Below are positions 3,076 to 36,485 of a stretch of 64,000 nucleotides of DNA, one piece after another. A program made the position numbers and the translations under genes. Each line of letters begins with the position of its first letter. The first letter of the stretch is position 1. The notes below the pieces were generated by a model. The model was not told where the DNA came from and ran no database searches. It was given only the letters and a program-made list of their open reading frames with translations. The stretch is from contig JAKFWO010000031.1 of assembly GCA_021731815.1 (NCBI GenBank), positions 1 through 64,000 on the forward strand, in the 5' to 3' direction. This stretch comes from Hyphomonadaceae bacterium. Its GTDB lineage: Bacteria > Pseudomonadota > Alphaproteobacteria > Caulobacterales > Aquidulcibacteraceae.

Positions 3076-3146
3076 CCCGTGAAGCGCGCCGGGTCTCCGC
3101 TGCGTCTCACGGATCATGAATCATTTGGAACGGAATCGGGTTGAAA

Positions 3147-4169
3147 ATGCTGGTGGTACGCTCCGCGCAAGCGCGGGATCTGGATGCCGTCGAAGCTTTG
3201 GCAAGGGCGTCTGGCCCGGGCTTTACCAGCCTTGCGCTGGGGCGGGCGGCGCTGGCCGAGCGGCTGGTCGATTGCGAGGCTGCCTTCGCGGCCCCCGAAA
3301 AGCCGGAACCGGGCGAGGAACGGTATCTCCTCGTGCTCGAGGATCTCGATACCGGGCGGCTGTGTGGTCTGTCGGGGATCAAGGCGGCGATCGGGCATTC
3401 CAAGCCCTTTTTCAATTTCCGCGTCCTGACCCTGAGCCAGGCCAGCCGGGCCGGCAATCGCCGGTTCGACCTCGACGTGCTGGTACTGGTCAATGAATAT
3501 ACCGGCTGTTCGGAAGTAGGCTCGCTGTTTGTGGATGCCGGCTGGCGCGGATCGGGGACCGGGCGGTTGCTGGCGCAATCGCGGTATCTGCTGATGGCGG
3601 CCGCGCCGGCGCGTTTTGGGCGCCTCGTCGTGTCGGAATTGCGCGGCGTGGTCAGCGCGGATGGCCAATCCCCGTTCTGGGAGCATCTGGGGCGCGCTTT
3701 TTTCCATATGGACTTTGCCGAGGCCGATCAATTGAGCTCGGAAACCGACAATCAGTTCGTGCTCGACCTGATGCCCAAACATCCGATCTATGTGGATCTT
3801 CTGCATGAGGACGCCCGCGCCGTGATGGGCCAGTGCCATCCGGAGGGGCGGGGTGCATTGGCGCTGCTCAACTGGGAAGGCTTTCGCTATGATCACGTCC
3901 TCGACATTTTTGACGGCGGACCGCTGGTCCTCTGCGCGCGCGAGGATATTCGCACGATCAAGGAATCCTTCGTCGCGGTTGCAAATGCCGGCGAGCCCGG
4001 CCCGCTGGCCCGACCGGCGCTGGCTTCTTCCAACCGTTTCAATGATTTCCGGGTCTGTCAGGCGAGGGTGAGGTGCGAGCATGGCGTGGCGACACTCCCG
4101 CCGGATGTGCTCGCGGCGCTGGGCCTTGCTGATGGCGATCCGGTTCGGCTCTGGCTGCGGCATGAATGA
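3147..4169 (+). CDS. astA: Arginine N-succinyltransferase
   Basis: First enzyme of the arginine succinyltransferase (AST) catabolic route: it transfers succinyl from succinyl-CoA to the alpha-amino group of arginine. The protein is 340 residues, matching the family. It starts VVRSAQARDLDAVEALA, like other AstA proteins, and has the GNAT-like core with LFVDAGWRGSGTGRLLAQSR (acyl-CoA loop) and later FRYDHVLDIFDGGP, characteristic of AstA. ATG 3147 is preferred; TTG 3141 is two codons upstream. It follows the M20 gene by about 70 bases, and its stop lies 20 bases before the preferred astD start. Confidence 0.93.
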   Translation: MLVVRSAQARDLDAVEALARASGPGFTSLALGRAALAERLVDCEAAFAAPEKPEPGEERYLLVLEDLDTGRLCGLSGIKAAIGHSKPFFNFRVLTLSQASRAGNRRFDLDVLVLVNEYTGCSEVGSLFVDAGWRGSGTGRLLAQSRYLLMAAAPARFGRLVVSELRGVVSADGQSPFWEHLGRAFFHMDFAEADQLSSETDNQFVLDLMPKHPIYVDLLHEDARAVMGQCHPEGRGALALLNWEGFRYDHVLDIFDGGPLVLCAREDIRTIKESFVAVANAGEPGPLARPALASSNRFNDFRVCQARVRCEHGVATLPPDVLAALGLADGDPVRLWLRHE

Positions 4170-27864: not shown

Positions 27865-28162
27865 GGCAGAATTCCGAAACAATGGGGCTGGATCCGGGCA
27901 AGAGGTAGCAGCCGGTCGGCCCGCTTTATCAGGTTCCGTCGGTCGGAAAAGCCTCAAATCCGGCCGCGTGGAATCACAGATGAGGCGATGAAGATAAAAA
28001 ACTCTGCAAAAGCTGGATTCGTAGCTTGCAAACAGACGAAGCTTCTCGCAATAAGCATTTATGAGCATAAAAATTCTACAAATTAGAAATGTGAACCCAG
28101 ACCGCGTGCAGGCCGCTTTCGCGCGCGATATTTCTGCGCCGGACGTACCCGGACGAGGTTCG
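27865..28162. other. Divergent region between aguB and the leu leader
   Basis: About 300 bases, AT-rich from 27985 to 28100. It should contain the promoters of aguB-mnmC and of the ilvD-leu operon. I cannot identify a confident -35/-10 pair and see no gene. Confidence 0.5.
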
Positions 28163-28213
28163 ATGGTGGGCTATTTTTGTTTGTCGGCCTCGCTGCTGCT
28201 GCTTCGCCCTTAG
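28163..28213 (+). CDS. Leucine-rich leader peptide of the ilvD-leuACDB operon
   Basis: A 16-codon frame, MVGYFCLSASLLLLRP, with GAGG six bases before the ATG. Four Leu codons in a row (CTG CTG CTG CTT, 28193-28204) end three codons before the TAG stop. A terminator hairpin and a competing antiterminator arm follow immediately. This is the layout of a classical ribosome-mediated attenuator: charged tRNA-Leu supply decides whether the ribosome stalls. It is followed 118 bases later by ilvD. This short frame has no other likely role. Confidence 0.88.
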   Translation: MVGYFCLSASLLLLRP

Positions 28214-28271
28214 GGAGCGGGATGCGATGCGTCATGTTTCGCCACCCGCCCCGCTCCGGAGCGGGTTTTTT
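28214..28271 (+). promoter_or_regulatory. Leucine attenuator: antiterminator arm and terminator hairpin
   Basis: GGAGCGGG at 28214-28221, right after the leader stop codon, is identical to the 3' arm of the terminator at 28258-28265. Both can pair with CCCGCTCC at 28250-28257. Terminator: 28250-28257 with 28258-28265, then six T (28266-28271). Antiterminator: 28214-28221 with 28250-28257. A ribosome that reaches the stop codon covers the first arm and lets the terminator form; one stalled on the Leu codons leaves it free to pair and blocks termination. Confidence 0.88.
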
Positions 28272-28331
28272 ATTGCCCCTTCGGTCTTGTTTGTGAGTCG
28301 ATTTTTCTAACCCGATCCCCGGTCAGTCGCC

Positions 28332-30071
28332 ATGCAAAACCCTTCCGACGCCATTTCCGAAAAGCGCAGCCACGCCATTACCGCGGGTCCGGGGCGGGCG
28401 GCGGCGCGGGCTTATCTGCGCGCGACCGGCATGGAGGATGGGGATTTCGCGCGCCCCATGATCGCGATCGTCAATACCTGGTCGAGCGTCACGCCCTGCA
28501 ACATGCATCTGGCCGATCTCGCAGTCCATGTCCGGCGCGGGATCCGCGAGGGCGGTGGTCATCCTGTCGATTTCAACACGATCGTGGTGACGGACGGGAT
28601 TGTCATGGGTTCGGCGGGAATGAAGGCTTCGCTGATTTCGCGGGAGGTGATTGCGGATTCGATCGAACTTGCGGTCGAGGGGCATCAATTGGACGGGCTG
28701 GTTTGTATCGTGGGCTGCGACAAGACCATACCGGCTGCCGCCATGGCGCTGATGCGGCTCAATGTTCCGGGGCTGGTGCTCTATGGCGGCACGATCATGC
28801 CCGGCCTTGTCCAGAAGCAGGGCGAAGCGGAGCCGACGGAAATCTCGATCCAGGACGTGTTCGAGGCCATCGGCGGCCATGCGGCCGGTGTACTCGACGA
28901 TGAAGCGCTCGCGGCCATCGAGCGCGCCGCCTGTCCGGGAGCCGGGGCCTGTGGCGGCCAGTTCACCGCCAATACCATGGCGATGGCGCTGACTTTTCTC
29001 GGTCTGTCGCCCATGGGGGCCAATGACGTCCCCGCCATCCACCCTGACAAGGCGCAGGTCGCCCGCGATGCCGGCGTTCGGGCCGCCGAATTATGCCTTG
29101 CCGGGATCCGGCCGCGCGACATTGTCGACCGGCACTCGCTCATCAACGCCGCACGCGCCGTCTCGGCCAGCGGTGGCTCCACCAATGCGGCGCTGCATCT
29201 GCCGGCGATCGCGGCGGAAGCGGAGATTCCCTTCAGCCTCGAGGATTGCCACGCGGCATGTGCCGAGATTCCGGTCCTGTGCGACCTCAAGCCCGGCGGG
29301 CGTTTTCTGGCGAGCGATTTGTTTGCCGCCGGCGGGTCGCGCTTGCTGGCCCGTCGCCTCGCCGAAGCCGGGAAATTGCATGACCGGCCGAGTGTCAGCG
29401 GCAGGAGCCTGTTCGCCGAATGCGCGGATGCGCCCGAGACCTCCGGCCAAAAGGTGGTCCGCGCCTGGGGCGATCCCGTCTTTCCGCGGGGCTCCTTCGC
29501 GGTGCTCTATGGCGACCTTGCGCCCGAAGGCAGCGTCATCAAGCTCACGGGCCATGATCTCGACCGCTTCGAGGGGCCGGCTTGCGTGTTTGACAGCGAG
29601 GAAGAGGCTTTTGCGGCAGTCCAGGCCGGGGCGATTGCCGAAGGCAGCGTCATCGTCATCCGCCATGAGGGGCCGCGCGGCGGGCCGGGAATGCGCGAAA
29701 TGCTTCAGGTGACGGCCGCATTGAAGGGTCGGGGGATCGAGCGTGTGGCGCTGATTACCGATGGCCGCTTTTCCGGCGCATCCTATGGCTTTGTGGTGGG
29801 TCACGTTTCGCCCGAGGCCGCATTGGGGGGCGCGATTGCATTTCTGCGCGATGGCGATCCGATTTTAATCGACGTCAAGGCGCGGCGCATCGACACGACC
29901 GCCGATCTCGCTTCCCGCAATTTTGTGCGCCCATCACGCGCGCCACAAGGCGGGGTGTTCGGGAAATATGCCGCGCTGGTGTCGTCGGCCTCACTGGGGG
30001 CAATTACCCGACCGCCTGTTGCGGTGCCACATGATGCTCCAGTTGTTTTCGTTGCCACAACGGTGATCTGA
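28332..30071 (+). CDS. ilvD: Dihydroxy-acid dehydratase
   Basis: Iron-sulfur dehydratase producing the 2-keto acids of valine, isoleucine and (through ketoisovalerate) leucine. 579 residues. Cluster cysteines: [23 protein letters not shown], and [16 protein letters not shown]. The lyase motif [21 protein letters not shown], with the catalytic Ser, is near the C terminus. ATG 28332 is 60 bases after the attenuator T run. First structural gene of ilvD-leuA-leuC-leuD-leuB; its TGA is one base before the leuA ATG. Confidence 0.95.
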
Positions 30072-30072
30072 G

Positions 30073-31341
30073 ATGAATCCGAACCATTCCGTCTTGCCCA
30101 TTCCCGCGGTTCCGACCATGAATTCCGGGCGCGAGCGCCTGACCATCCTCGACACCACACTCCGCGATGGCGAACAGGCACCGGGTTTTTCCATGACGGG
30201 CGAGGTGAAGCTCCGGATTGCCCGGGCATTGGCCGAATTGGGGGTGGATGTGATCGAGGCCGGATTTGCCGCGACCTCGCCCGCCGACGAGGAGGCCCTG
30301 CGGATCATTGCTCAGGAAGTCGGGGGCGGGTTCACCGGGCCGGTGATCTGCTCGCTCGCGCGGGCCAATGAGCGCGACATCCGCGCCGCCGCGCGGGCAC
30401 TGGCGGGGGCACGGCGTGCGCGCGTGCATGTCTTCATCAGCACGAGCCCTTTGCACCGGCGCGCCAAGCTCGGCATGAGTGCCGCCGAAGTGCTGAAAGC
30501 CGCAAGCGAGGCGGTCAGCTTTGCGTGCAGCCTGTTTGCGGATGTGGAATTCTCGGCCGAGGATGCGATCCGCACCGAGCCTGAATTCCTTGCCGAGGTG
30601 ATGGAGGCCGCCGCCGAAGCGGGGGCGCGCACGCTCAATCTGCCCGACACGGTTGGCTATGCGACGCCAGAGGAAATGTTCGCGATCTTTTCCGCCATGC
30701 GCGCACGGCTCATGCCGCGCTTTCCGGGGATCGTATTGTCGGCGCATTGTCATGACGATCTCGGCATGGCGGTCGCCAATTCGCTGGCCGCCGTGCGCGC
30801 CGGGGCGCGCCAGATCGAGGTATCGATCAATGGCATTGGCGAGCGCGCCGGCAATTGTGCGCTGGAGGAAGCAGTGATGGCCATCCGCACCCGGCCCGAT
30901 GTCTTTGGCGTGGAAACCGGGGTGGAGACGACGAAATTGCTCGCCACCAGCCAAATGGTCAGCGAACTCACCTCGGCCCCCGTCTCGCGCAACAAGGCTG
31001 TGGTGGGGGCCAATGCCTTTGCCCATGAAGCGGGCATTCATCAGCACGGGATGCTGGCCGATGCCCGCACCTATGAAATCATGCGTCCGGAGGATGTCGG
31101 TTTTGCGGGGTCAAGGCTGGTCCTCGGTCGCCATTCGGGGCACCATGCGATCGCCGCCCGGGCTGCGGAACTCGGGCATCAATTGGGATCCGGTGAGACA
31201 AGTGCGGTGATGACGGAGTTCAAGGCGCGGGCCGAGGCGATCGGCGAGATCGACGATGCGGAATTGCTGGCGATCATCGCGGCGGTAACCGGCCCGGCGC
31301 CGGAAGCGCCCGCCATGGCGGGGCTTGCCAATGTCGGCTGA
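30073..31341 (+). CDS. leuA: 2-isopropylmalate synthase, short form without the C-terminal regulatory domain
   Basis: Condenses ketoisovalerate with acetyl-CoA, the committed leucine step. 422 residues. The catalytic TIM barrel is clear: [16 protein letters not shown] (metal Asp, catalytic Arg), [39 protein letters not shown] (metal His pair), [19 protein letters not shown] linker subdomain follows ([29 protein letters not shown]). The protein stops soon after, about 100 residues before a typical LeuA (around 520) that carries the leucine-binding dimer domain. ATG 30073 follows the ilvD stop; ATG 30118 is possible. NifV-like homocitrate synthase is less likely given leuCDB downstream. Confidence 0.9.
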
Positions 31342-32782
31342 GCAAGTCTCTCCGCCCCGGACCCTGTTCGACAGGATCATGGATTCGCATCTCGTGCGCG
31401 GCGAAACGGATGATGCGCCGGCGATTCTCTATGTCGATCTCCATCTCGTGCATGAAGTGACGAGCCCGCAGGCCTTTGCCGGGCTGGCGGCGCGGGGTAT
31501 CAAAACCCGCCGCCCGGACCTCACCCTCGCCACCATCGACCATTCGACGCCGACCCTCCCGCCCGATTGCAACGGGAAGCGGCCTTTTGTCAGCCCGGCG
31601 GCGGAGGCCCAGGTGGCGACGCTTCTGCGCAATTGCGCCGAACATGGCATCGAAATGCTCGGCTGGGACAGCGCCGATCGCGGGATCGTCCATGTCATTG
31701 CGCCCGAACTCGGCCTGACGCTTCCGGGCTCGGTCATCGTGTGCGGCGACAGCCACACCGCCACCCATGGGGCGTTTGGCGCACTGGCTTTCGGGATCGG
31801 CACCTCGGAAGTCGCGATGGTACTGGCCACGCAATGCATTTTGCAGCGCAAGCCAAAGGCGATGCGCGTAACGATTACCGGGCCGCGCCCCGCCTTTGTG
31901 GCAGGCAAGGACATCGCGCTTTACGTTTTGCATGTGCTCGGTTTCAGTGGCGGCACCGGCCATGTCATCGAATATGCCGGCGAAGTGGTGCAGGCCATGA
32001 CCATGGAAGAGCGCATGACCCTGTGCAACATGTCCATTGAGGCCGGGGCAAAAGCGGGGCTCGTCGCGCCTGACGAAACCACCATCGCCTGGCTGCGGGC
32101 ATGTCCGCGGGTGCCCGAGGGTGCGGAATTCGTGGCTATGGCCGCGCAATGGCGGACGCTCAAAAGCGATCCGGATGCGGTGTTCGACCGCGAGATCAGC
32201 GTCGATATCAGCGGACTTTCGCCCATGGCGAGCTGGGGGACGACCCCCGATGCCGCCGGACCGATCGTCGAACAGATTCCCGAACCACGGGACACGAATG
32301 AAAGCCGGGGCTTTGATTATATGGGCGTCGCGGCCGGCCAGCCCAATGAAGGTCGCAAGGTGGATGTCGTGTTTATCGGGTCCTGCACCAATGGCCGGCT
32401 GTCCGATCTTGAAGCGGCGGCGGCGATCCTGCGCGGCCGGGTTGTGGCACCGGGCCTTCGCGTTATCATCGCGCCGGGATCGGAAGCGGTGAAGCGGGAG
32501 GCCGAAGCGCGCGGGCTGGACATGGTGTTTCGCGAGGCCGGCGCCGAATGGCGCGAACCGGGCTGTTCCATGTGCATTGCGATGAATGGCGATATCGCGG
32601 CGGCGGGAGAGGTGGTTGTCTCTACCTCCAACCGCAATTTTGCCGGACGTCAGGGTCCCGGCTCCCGCACCATTCTCGCGAGCCCCGCAACGGCTGCGGC
32701 GAGCGCAATCATGGGCGCACTTGCCGATCCGCGGCGTTTCGCCGGTTCCCCGGAACCCGAACAGGAAGCGTTCCGGGCCTGA
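31331..32782 (+). CDS. leuC: 3-isopropylmalate dehydratase large subunit
   Basis: Aconitase-family [4Fe-4S] subunit that isomerises 2- to 3-isopropylmalate with LeuD. 483 residues. Marks: [69 protein letters not shown] (cluster Cys), [14 protein letters not shown] (two more cluster Cys) and [17 protein letters not shown] 31331 lies inside the end of leuA, so the genes overlap by 11 bases. A TTG at 31325 is an alternative. Confidence 0.95.
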
Positions 32783-32810: not shown

Positions 32811-33404
32811 ATGCGTCAGCCTTTTGTCAGCCTCACGGCACCCCTTGTCGGCCTCGCGCAAGCGAGCGTCGATACCGATCAGATCATTCCGGCGCGGTTC
32901 CTGACGACCACCACACGGCAGGGTCTGGGCGACAAGGCCTTTTTCGACTGGCGCCATGACGCCACAGGCCAGCCGATTGCCGGGCACAGGCTCAATGGAA
33001 TCGCCGGGCAGGGGCCGTTCATCCTGGTGGCGGGCGACAATTTCGGCTGCGGTTCCTCGCGCGAACATGCGCCCTGGGCCTTGCTGGATTTCGGGTTCCG
33101 GGCGGTGCTCTCGACCCGGATCGCCGATATTTTTCGCAGCAATTCCCTCAATAACGGCCTGTTGGCGCTGGAAATCCCGGCCGATATCCATCAGCAATTA
33201 CTGCGGGCGGAGGGAACCGCGATCACTATCGACCTCGCTGCGCGCAAAATCCGGGCTCCCGGAATTTGCCCCGATTTTGGCTTCGACTTGGATCCCTTTG
33301 CGCGGCTCTGCCTGATGGAGGGGACCGATCCCATGGGCTATCTGCTCGGACACAGCGCGACGATCGCTGATTTTGAGGCCCGCCAGCGGTCGGAAATGCA
33401 ATGA
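32811..33404 (+). CDS. leuD: 3-isopropylmalate dehydratase small subunit
   Basis: 197 residues. Contains DTDQIIPARFLTTTTRQGLG, GDNFGCGSSREHAPWAL (the substrate-binding swivel-domain loop) and ADIFRSNSLNNGLLALE. It pairs with LeuC. ATG 32811 has AGGA nine bases upstream. Its stop overlaps the leuB start in an ATGA arrangement. Confidence 0.95.
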   Translation: MRQPFVSLTAPLVGLAQASVDTDQIIPARFLTTTTRQGLGDKAFFDWRHDATGQPIAGHRLNGIAGQGPFILVAGDNFGCGSSREHAPWALLDFGFRAVLSTRIADIFRSNSLNNGLLALEIPADIHQQLLRAEGTAITIDLAARKIRAPGICPDFGFDLDPFARLCLMEGTDPMGYLLGHSATIADFEARQRSEMQ

Positions 33405-34438
33405 AATCCATTGCTTTCCTTCCGGGCGACGGGGTGGGACCCGAAGTGTCGGCCAGCGCCATGGCGGTCCTGCGAAAAGTTACAGAGCGCTTTGGAATTG
33501 AATTTGCCGTTTCCAGCCATCCCATTGGCGGTGCCGCGATCGATGCGACGGGTGAGCCTTTGCCCGCGGCGACTCTCGAAGCCTGTCTCGCGGCCGATGC
33601 CGTCTTTCTCGGTGCGGTCGGTGGCCCACGCTGGGATGGGGCATTCCAGCGCCCCGAACATGGCCTGCTGGCCCTGCGCAAGGCCATGGGGGTCTATGCC
33701 AATATCCGCCCGCTGCGGATTTTTCCTGGATTAATGATGGCCTCGCCCCTGCGTCCGGAACTGGTGGCGGGAGTGGATCTCGTGATCTTCCGCGAATTAA
33801 CCGGCGGGATCTATTTCGGAGCCAAACAAGAGGAATCCGGATTCGCCCGCGACGAATGCCCCTATCACGCCGATGAGATCGCGCGCATCGCGCACCGGGC
33901 CTTTGCGGGGGCCCGAGGCCGGCGGGGCAGGGTCGCATCGGTGGACAAGGCCAATGTCATGGCAACCGGTCGCCTGTGGCGGCGTGTCGTCAGTGCCATC
34001 CATGCCGCGCATTATCCGGACATCCTGCTCGAACACATTCTGGTCGATGCCATGGCCATGCATCTCGTTCGCCGCCCGGCTGATTTCGATGTGATCCTGA
34101 CCGAAAACATGTTTGGCGATATTCTGTCGGACGAGGCCTCGGCCATTGCCGGCTCGATCGGGCTCGCGCCCTCGGCCTCGCTGGGGGATCGCGCGGGCGG
34201 GCTGTTCGAACCCGTGCATGGATCGGCCCCCGACATTGCCGGTCAGGACAAGGCCAACCCGATCGGAGCCATCCTGTCGCTGGCCATGCTGCTGGAGGAC
34301 GGACTCGGGCTGCCGGAACCCGCCGCGCGCATCGTGGACGCGGTCAGCCAGACCCTGGCCGATGGTGCGCGGACGGTGGATCTCGGCGGAAACTGGGGTT
34401 GCCGGCGCATGAGCGAGGCCATTCTCGCCCGCATCTGA
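33401..34438 (+). CDS. leuB: 3-isopropylmalate dehydrogenase
   Basis: Oxidises and decarboxylates 3-isopropylmalate to 2-ketoisocaproate with NAD. 345 residues. FLPGDGVGPEV, LLALRKAMGVYANIRPLR, LVIFRELTGGIYFG, VDKANVMATGRLWRRVV (catalytic Lys), LTENMFGDILSDEASAIAGSIG (metal Asp residues) and LFEPVHGSAPDIAGQDKANP (NAD site) are all present. Last gene of the operon. About 130 bases separate it from shc. Confidence 0.96.
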   Translation: MKSIAFLPGDGVGPEVSASAMAVLRKVTERFGIEFAVSSHPIGGAAIDATGEPLPAATLEACLAADAVFLGAVGGPRWDGAFQRPEHGLLALRKAMGVYANIRPLRIFPGLMMASPLRPELVAGVDLVIFRELTGGIYFGAKQEESGFARDECPYHADEIARIAHRAFAGARGRRGRVASVDKANVMATGRLWRRVVSAIHAAHYPDILLEHILVDAMAMHLVRRPADFDVILTENMFGDILSDEASAIAGSIGLAPSASLGDRAGGLFEPVHGSAPDIAGQDKANPIGAILSLAMLLEDGLGLPEPAARIVDAVSQTLADGARTVDLGGNWGCRRMSEAILARI

Positions 34439-34571: not shown

Positions 34572-36485
34572 ATGAAGCGTGAAGAACTTGTCCTGGACGC
34601 CCGCACCCGGCTCGAGGCCCTGCAAAGGCCGGACGGGCATTATTTGTTTGAGCTCGAGGCCGACGCGACGATTCCGGCTGAATATATCCTGCTCCGGCAT
34701 TTCCTCGATGAACGCGACCCGGCGCGCGAGAAGCGGATCATTGTCTATCTGAAGCGGATCCAGAACACAGACGGCTCCTGGCCGCTCTTCCATCGGGGGG
34801 AGGGCGATCTTTCGGCCACGATCAAGGCCTATTGGGCGCTGAAATGGGCGGGCGAACCGATCGACGCAGGCTATATGGAAAAGGCCCGCGCCTTCGTGCT
34901 GTCGAAAGGCGGAGCCGCCAGAGCCAATGTGTTTACGCGCTTTGCGCTGGCCCTGTTCGGTCAGGCCCCGTGGCGGGCAATGCCGGTCATGCCGGTCGAG
35001 ATCATGCTGCTGCCGCAATGGTTCTTCTTCCACATGTCGAAAGTGGCCTATTGGTCGCGCACGGTGATTGCACCGATGCTGGTGCTGTGCGCCCTGAAGC
35101 CCCGCGCTACCAGCCCGACCGGTCTCGATATTCGGGAATTGTTTCTCATCCCGCCGGAGGAACGCCAGATCTTCAACATCAACCCGACCGGATCGCTGGT
35201 CGGCAATCTGTTTCTCGGGCTCGACAAATTATTGCGCTTTTGCGAGCCGGCCTTTCCAAAGGGCCTGCGCAAGCACGCCATCCGGAAAGCGACCGAATTT
35301 TTTCTCGAGCGTCTGAATGGCGAGGACGGATTGGGCGCGATCTATCCGGCCATGGCCAATTCCGTGATGGCCATGCATGCGCTGGGTTTTGCGAAGGATG
35401 ACCCGAATCTGGTGATCGCAAAACGATCGATCGAGCTTCTGGTCGTCGATCGCGGCGAGGAAACCTATGTCCAGCCTTGCGTATCGCCGGTCTGGGACAG
35501 CGGGCTGGCGGCGCATGCCTTGCTGGAAGCGGGGGCTGGCCCCAATGCGGCCTCGGTGAAAAAGACGCTGGACTGGCTGAAGGACCGCCAGATCCTCGAT
35601 GTGAAGGGCGATTGGGCCGTGCGGCGCCCAGGCCTCCGGCCCGGCGGCTGGGCATTTCAATATTGGAACAATCATTATCCGGATGTGGACGACACCGCCG
35701 TCGTCGCCATGGCCATGCACCGCGCGAGTGACCCTGCCTATAACGAAGCCATCGACCGGGCCGTGGAATGGATCCTTGGCATGCAATCGGCCTCGGGCGG
35801 CTGGGGCGCGTTTGAACCGGAAAACGAGCATTTTTATCTGAATTCGATCCCCTTCGCCGATCATGGCGCTCTGCTCGATCCGCCCACGGTGGATGTAACC
35901 GCGCGCTGCGTATCGCTGCTTGCCCAGATCGATCCCGAGCGCAAGGACCCGGTAATGCAGGAATCCATCCGCAAGGCGGTGGATTACATGCGCCGCGACC
36001 AGGAGCCGGATGGCTCATGGTTCGGGCGCTGGGGGGCCAATTACATCTATGGAACGTGGTCAGTTTTATGCGCGCTCAATGTGGCCGGTGAGGACCCGAA
36101 ACAGGATTACCTTCAGCGCGCGATCGCCTGGCTCAAGCGCCAGCAGCGCGAGGATGGCGGCTGGGGCGAGGATCTTGCGACCTATCACGCCCATCGCAAG
36201 GGCGAGGCGCAGGGCTCGACTCCTTCCCAGACCGCCTGGGCGCTGATGGGCCTGATGGCGGCGGGGGAGGTCGCGGCCCCCGAAACCGCGAAAGGGATTT
36301 CCTGGCTCGAGGATGCTCCGCGCGAAGGGGCCCGCTGGAACGAGGATTTTTATACAGGTACCGGATTTCCGCGCGTTTTTTATCTCAAATATCATGGCTA
36401 TGCGGCCTATTTTCCGCTCTGGGCGGTCGCGCGCTATGAAAATCTGCGGCGGTCCAATGAGAAAAAAATCGCCTATGGCATGTGA
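34572..36485 (+). CDS. shc: Squalene-hopene cyclase
   Basis: 637 residues, class II terpene cyclase at the inner membrane that folds squalene to hopene. The general acid DxDD motif is in NHYPDVDDTAVVAMA. QW-type repeats are frequent (QNTDGSWPLF, GMQSASGGWGAF, QEPDGSWFGRWGANYIYG, QQREDGGWGED, STPSQTAWALMGL). C-terminal GTGFPRVFYLKYHGYAAYFPLWA is also conserved. ATG 34572 gives a full-length enzyme. hpnG follows nine bases later, so the pair is a hopanoid operon. The presence of an upstream leu operon appears incidental. Confidence 0.96.
   Translation: MKREELVLDARTRLEALQRPDGHYLFELEADATIPAEYILLRHFLDERDPAREKRIIVYLKRIQNTDGSWPLFHRGEGDLSATIKAYWALKWAGEPIDAGYMEKARAFVLSKGGAARANVFTRFALALFGQAPWRAMPVMPVEIMLLPQWFFFHMSKVAYWSRTVIAPMLVLCALKPRATSPTGLDIRELFLIPPEERQIFNINPTGSLVGNLFLGLDKLLRFCEPAFPKGLRKHAIRKATEFFLERLNGEDGLGAIYPAMANSVMAMHALGFAKDDPNLVIAKRSIELLVVDRGEETYVQPCVSPVWDSGLAAHALLEAGAGPNAASVKKTLDWLKDRQILDVKGDWAVRRPGLRPGGWAFQYWNNHYPDVDDTAVVAMAMHRASDPAYNEAIDRAVEWILGMQSASGGWGAFEPENEHFYLNSIPFADHGALLDPPTVDVTARCVSLLAQIDPERKDPVMQESIRKAVDYMRRDQEPDGSWFGRWGANYIYGTWSVLCALNVAGEDPKQDYLQRAIAWLKRQQREDGGWGEDLATYHAHRKGEAQGSTPSQTAWALMGLMAAGEVAAPETAKGISWLEDAPREGARWNEDFYTGTGFPRVFYLKYHGYAAYFPLWAVARYENLRRSNEKKIAYGM

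Follow-up and report, generated by a model that had tools for sequence, protein, structure and literature searches.

We conclude that the sequence upstream of ilvD very probably encodes a ribosome-mediated attenuator of the operon ilvD-leuACDB, with charged leucyl-tRNA as the signal. It lies on the forward strand of the 64,000-nucleotide stretch of Hyphomonadaceae DNA analysed here (the window), and its position and architecture match those of the attenuator found before ilvD in relatives, which senses isoleucine, leucine and valine (the ILV attenuator); its own sensor is narrowed to leucine. The mechanism is ordinary and already known, and it is the retuning that is interesting. We lean towards a reading in which the attenuator changed what it senses along with what its operon makes: ilvC, ilvB and ilvN would have left the operon, the Ile and Val codons would have been lost, and leucine alone would now control a single dihydroxy-acid dehydratase. 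This sensor change is read from one genome. The predicted wiring is unusual, since leucine supply alone would set the level of the enzyme common to valine, isoleucine and leucine synthesis. The element also allows a clear comparison, over many genomes, between the amino acids to which an attenuator responds and the genes of its operon.

The leader open reading frame (MVGYFCLSASLLLLRP, 16 codons and a TAG stop, 28163–28213) was read directly from the sequence, and its translation is a prediction. A Shine–Dalgarno-like GAGG is found 4 nt 5′ of the ATG at 28163; no promoter was recognised. The sensor is the tandem run CTG CTG CTG CTT at 28193–28204, as the initial annotation had claimed for a 16-residue leader with four tandem Leu codons. 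A further Leu codon, TTG at 28181, makes five in the last 14 codons before the arm described below, a stretch in which there is neither Ile nor Val. CTG is the commonest Leu codon here (43%). The stop codon (28211–28213) is immediately 5′ of arm 2 (GGAGCGGG, 28214–28221), the 5′ arm of the antiterminator, whose counterpart is conserved in relatives. Arm 2 is complementary to arm 3 (CCCGCTCC, 28250–28257), which serves both as the 5′ arm of the terminator and as the 3′ arm of the antiterminator, and has the same letters as arm 4 (GGAGCGGG, 28258–28265). Together with the T6 run at 28266–28271, arms 3 and 4 place an intrinsic terminator (28250–28271; arm 4 and T run, 28258–28271) between the leader and the first structural gene. 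The copy of the terminator 3′ arm at the stop codon is thus where it had been reported, and the six T residues are present; the terminator stem is not the 8 bp first described. The two terminator arms together make up a 16-nt palindrome that leaves no room for a loop, so the actual stem has 6 bp (28250–28255 paired with 28260–28265) and is closed by a CCGG loop. In the folding model, a shifted register spanning 28244–28266 is more stable still (−13.5 versus −10.1 kcal/mol). A possible arm 1, CUGCUUC (28199–28205), lies within the Leu codons and pairs with 28214–28220 (−10.1 kcal/mol by energy evaluation).

We infer translation, stalling and termination as follows. Given the extent of the ribosome footprint in attenuation, and with the stop codon directly 5′ of arm 2, a ribosome that terminates there would cover the arm and one stalled at the Leu codons would leave it free. 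When leucine is plentiful, the ribosome would reach the TAG at 28211–28213 with its footprint over arm 2; arms 3 and 4 would then form the terminator and transcription would stop near 28271. Under a shortage of leucyl-tRNA, it would instead stall at CTG CTG CTG CTT, and the free arm 2 would capture arm 3 as it emerges from the polymerase, allowing transcription into ilvD-leuACDB.

The combination of a T-tailed hairpin whose 3′ arm recurs upstream with a Leu-run leader occurs once in the window and in 0 of 60 dinucleotide shuffles. Taken separately, the score of the 8-bp arm match is reached in 0.8% of shuffles (92 nt upstream), and a scan of the window for terminators by themselves found 5 where 6.0 were expected, with no excess over chance. 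In this GC-rich window, the terminator taken alone carries no significance.

The proposal that the two foldings are mutually exclusive is favoured by the 8-bp match between arms 2 and 3 and by the cross-clade matching of these arms described below, but is made less clean by a competing local hairpin (28217–28249; stem 28217–28221 with 28245–28249) that can form alongside the terminator. When the modelled transcript ends at 28257 and 28205–28211 onwards is free, the model at equilibrium gives this hairpin, extended to 28213–28252, a probability of 0.93–0.95 and the 8-bp antiterminator 0.05–0.07; the latter rises to 0.85 once 28213 is covered. As the local hairpin competes with the antiterminator, equilibrium folding by itself is no proof of switching, and as the model favours the hairpin at equilibrium, switching would have to be kinetic. 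In the full transcript with the Leu codons occluded, the terminator still has an equilibrium probability of 0.31–0.90. A ribosome modelled at the stop codon covers arm 2, and the shifted-register terminator can form. In naked RNA, the Leu codons (28199–28206) pair with arm 4, which would prevent the terminator, so that the fold without translation departs from textbook attenuator behaviour. A clean on/off switch was not obtained from ribosome-masked equilibrium folding.

Comparison with relatives supports ribosome-mediated attenuation. A leader, an arm and a terminator precede ilvD in nearly all examined relatives that have this ilvD type and enough upstream sequence; automatic detection missed or misplaced the terminator in some of them. 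The layout is a short open reading frame in which Ile, Leu and Val codons are densely clustered, followed mostly 0–23 nt 3′ of the densest stretch by a GGAGCGG-like arm, and further on by a terminator with a T run. The initial annotation would have been contradicted by close relatives lacking the Leu codons or the alternative pairing; the relatives examined keep both, and their terminator too has the same position ahead of ilvD, and its interpretation of the element as a leucine attenuator is supported. In the 14 codons before the arm, Val is found in 85/85 scored relatives, Leu in 85/85 and Ile in 83/85, whereas the window has Leu alone. The codons most frequent in the relatives' runs (leaders of loci L061–L182) are CTT, CTC, ATT and GTA; CTT, ATT and GTA are rarer in the operon genes of the window, and GTA accounts for 5.6% of the Val codons of these genes and shc.

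The ILV attenuator of the eight-gene operon ilvD-ilvC-ilvB-ilvN-leuACDB, seen in public genomes of Caulobacterales-type alphaproteobacteria and Lysobacter-type gammaproteobacteria, is a close counterpart of the window element. The two are alike in their position before ilvD, in the run directly 5′ of arm 2, in the complementarity of arm 2 to the 5′ arm of a T-tailed terminator and in having the same ilvD and leu genes downstream. They differ in what is sensed, which in relatives is Ile, Leu and Val together, and in gene content, as ilvCBN belongs to the relatives' operon but not to that of the window. The relatives' leader also usually ends 10–29 nt past the start of arm 2, which places arm 2 inside the leader in most of them, and the geometry thus differs from that of the window, where the leader ends directly before arm 2. 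As its sensor is Leu-only and lacks the Ile and Val codons, we regard the window element as a derivative of the ILV attenuator, not a standard member.

Covariation was assessed for both pairings. When 44 sequences are aligned, 95.8% of the terminator stem is paired and there are 14 double-change cells; neither figure was reached in any of 1000 whole-arm swaps. Column-based covariation between arms 2 and 3 is weak, the observed paired fraction being reached in 28/1000 swaps, partly because of misalignment; in the MAFFT alignment on which the column test was run, the window row is misaligned at arm 2. For these reasons, a position-free permutation test was used instead, in which the leader region of each genome was paired for scoring with the terminator arm of the same genome or of a different one. 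Arm 2 scores 18.72 against its own terminator arm and the permuted maximum is 17.77 (0/300 permutations reach the own score), figures that are not probabilities in the strict sense, since the sequences share ancestry and so lack independence. For the seven sequences of xanthomonad type, the score is 24.4 against their own arms (CGCGCC or CGCACC) and 15.8 against the commonest one. The three whose arms read GCTCCC go against the pattern (17.0 with their own arm, 20.6 with the commonest), and the arm-matching signal is therefore not uniform.

The genes downstream are all on the forward strand with close spacing or overlap: ilvD (dihydroxy-acid dehydratase, 28332–30071), leuA (2-isopropylmalate synthase, 30073–31341), leuC (31325–32782), leuD (32811–33404) and leuB (33401–34438). 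This ilvD is the only dihydroxy-acid dehydratase gene found in the genome, so leucine control would reach valine and isoleucine synthesis too, which upholds the earlier suggestion of leucine gating through ilvD. A second ilvD-like match in the genome was rejected as a dihydroxy-acid dehydratase and is edd. LeuA is a short form without the LeuA_dimer allosteric domain, and a search of the genome found no second leuA; the missing domain suggests that attenuation may bear more of the leucine control than usual. LeuA is 422 aa long (30073–31341); the homologue in locus L061 is also short and that in L070 has LeuA_dimer. A squalene-hopene cyclase gene (34572–36485) follows on the same strand, 133 nt 3′ of leuB.

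In family and order genomes with this ilvD type, the order is ilvD-ilvC-ilvB-ilvN, then in most cases leuA, and leuCDB. The same order holds in most of 80 named GTDB loci, which include Terricaulis and other Hyphomonadaceae, Brevundimonas, Maricaulis, Parvularcula, Robiginitomaculum, Lysobacter and Arenimonas; some of these loci are without leuA or are cut by contig ends. Among the loci inspected, leuA directly follows ilvD only in the window, and none elsewhere with ilvD directly before leuA was noticed among the matches listed for the family and 398 genomes of the order, whose coordinates were read. Two genomes that have lost ilvC alone retain a mixed ILV leader. In several genera (loci L218–L236), ilvD is oriented away from ilvC-ilvB-ilvN-leuA and is about 5 kb from it; where a genus has ilvD apart from ilvCBN-leu, a search of the region before ilvD in most cases revealed no recognisable ILV leader, with one short Leu-containing open reading frame in L225.

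The window's operon has no ilvC, ilvB or ilvN, and other copies are found elsewhere in the genome. Its ilvB and ilvC are on other contigs, and their identity to a relative's operon copies is 46% and 52%, respectively; to the dispersed copies in family members that lack the operon it is ~70%. By sequence, the genome combines an operon-type ilvD-leuACDB with dispersed-type ilvB/ilvN and ilvC. No attenuator was recognised before its own ilvC or, by the same criteria, before ilvB. A promoter-like TTGACT and a strong T-tailed hairpin (GGGCCCGGTATTTCCGGGCCC) precede this ilvB (locus L083, ~3080–3420; G000:C1:17080-17419), where no clear Ile/Leu/Val leader was recognised.

The absence of ilvCBN from the operon, taken with the absence of Ile and Val from the sensor, leads us to suggest a descendant of the ILV attenuator that narrowed as the operon shrank; the direction of change that we infer is one in which the sensor would have become leucine-only in the lineage where ilvC, ilvB and ilvN left. 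The same facts could be taken as signs of decay, with the terminator acting as a constitutive partial stop, the Leu run and stop codon as leftovers, and no response to any amino acid. The leader is indeed shorter than those of relatives and its Ile and Val codons are gone, its Leu codons are mostly the common CTG whereas the relatives' sensors use many CTT, ATT and GTA, and the model favours another fold over the antiterminator. However, the four tandem Leu codons, the arm match of 8 bp and the terminator with its intact T6 have all been kept while the ilvD protein stands at ~70% identity, and a stop codon adjoining arm 2 is the classical geometry; we consider decay unlikely.

The length of the leader bears on a different reading. 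An alternative in-frame open reading frame of 40 aa begins at a GTG at 28091 and runs to the same stop (28091–28213), and as the relatives' leaders are mostly longer than 16 aa, it stands as an alternative candidate for the real leader. Scattered Val and Ile codons in this open frame could in principle still let all three branched-chain amino acids be sensed. A ribosome stalled at such early codons would sit far from arm 2, however, and neither Val nor Ile is found in the last 14 codons before it, a stretch with Val in all scored relatives, which makes continued sensing of all three very improbable. Least credible of all is a protein-binding or riboswitch leader in which the open reading frame is incidental. 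One weak, sub-threshold Rfam match, to anti-hemB (28187–28274, 23.8 bits against a cut-off of 49.5), speaks for it indirectly at most, but what the relatives conserve before arm 2 is a translated-looking ILV run and not an RNA fold. The anti-hemB match spans most of the element and probably reflects a common hairpin-plus-terminator shape.

The leucine-sensing attenuator that we favour also invites comparison with described systems. The enterobacterial leuL attenuator has four tandem Leu codons, alternative arms and a terminator before the leu genes; the window element resembles it in the Leu run, the terminator and the putative alternative arms, but has ilvD as its first gene. The Rfam Leu_leader covariance model gave no match at the gathering threshold or at E values up to 10. 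The relatives point to an origin from the ILV leader, separate from that of enterobacterial leuL. The initial annotation spoke of leucine attenuation as proposed in alphaproteobacteria, and attenuation in this class has already been described: according to a passage of PMC4117421 citing Tarleton et al. 1994, the Caulobacter crescentus ilvBN (ilvIH) leader mediates ribosome-dependent attenuation through tandem Ile and Val codons. Like the mechanism proposed here, that attenuator is ribosome-mediated, serves branched-chain genes and belongs to an alphaproteobacterium of the same order, but it controls acetolactate synthase through Ile and Val codons and is a separate element from that of the window. 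Family members have short counterparts of it before ilvB (for example MRNVALVLVRMPRLGEG). A literature search found leader-peptide attenuation of branched-chain operons reported in several phyla; within the open literature that it covered, no account of this alphaproteobacterial ilvD attenuator came up, and an earlier description is possible, for example in the comparative paper of Vitreschak et al. 2004.

Seven loci of Lysobacter-type gammaproteobacteria (L141, L153, L157, L161, L162, L165 and L166) have an ilvD-ilvC-ilvB operon of this kind, preceded by an ILV leader and arms that differ in concert. The presence of this operon and leader in both classes suggests an old horizontal transfer between them.
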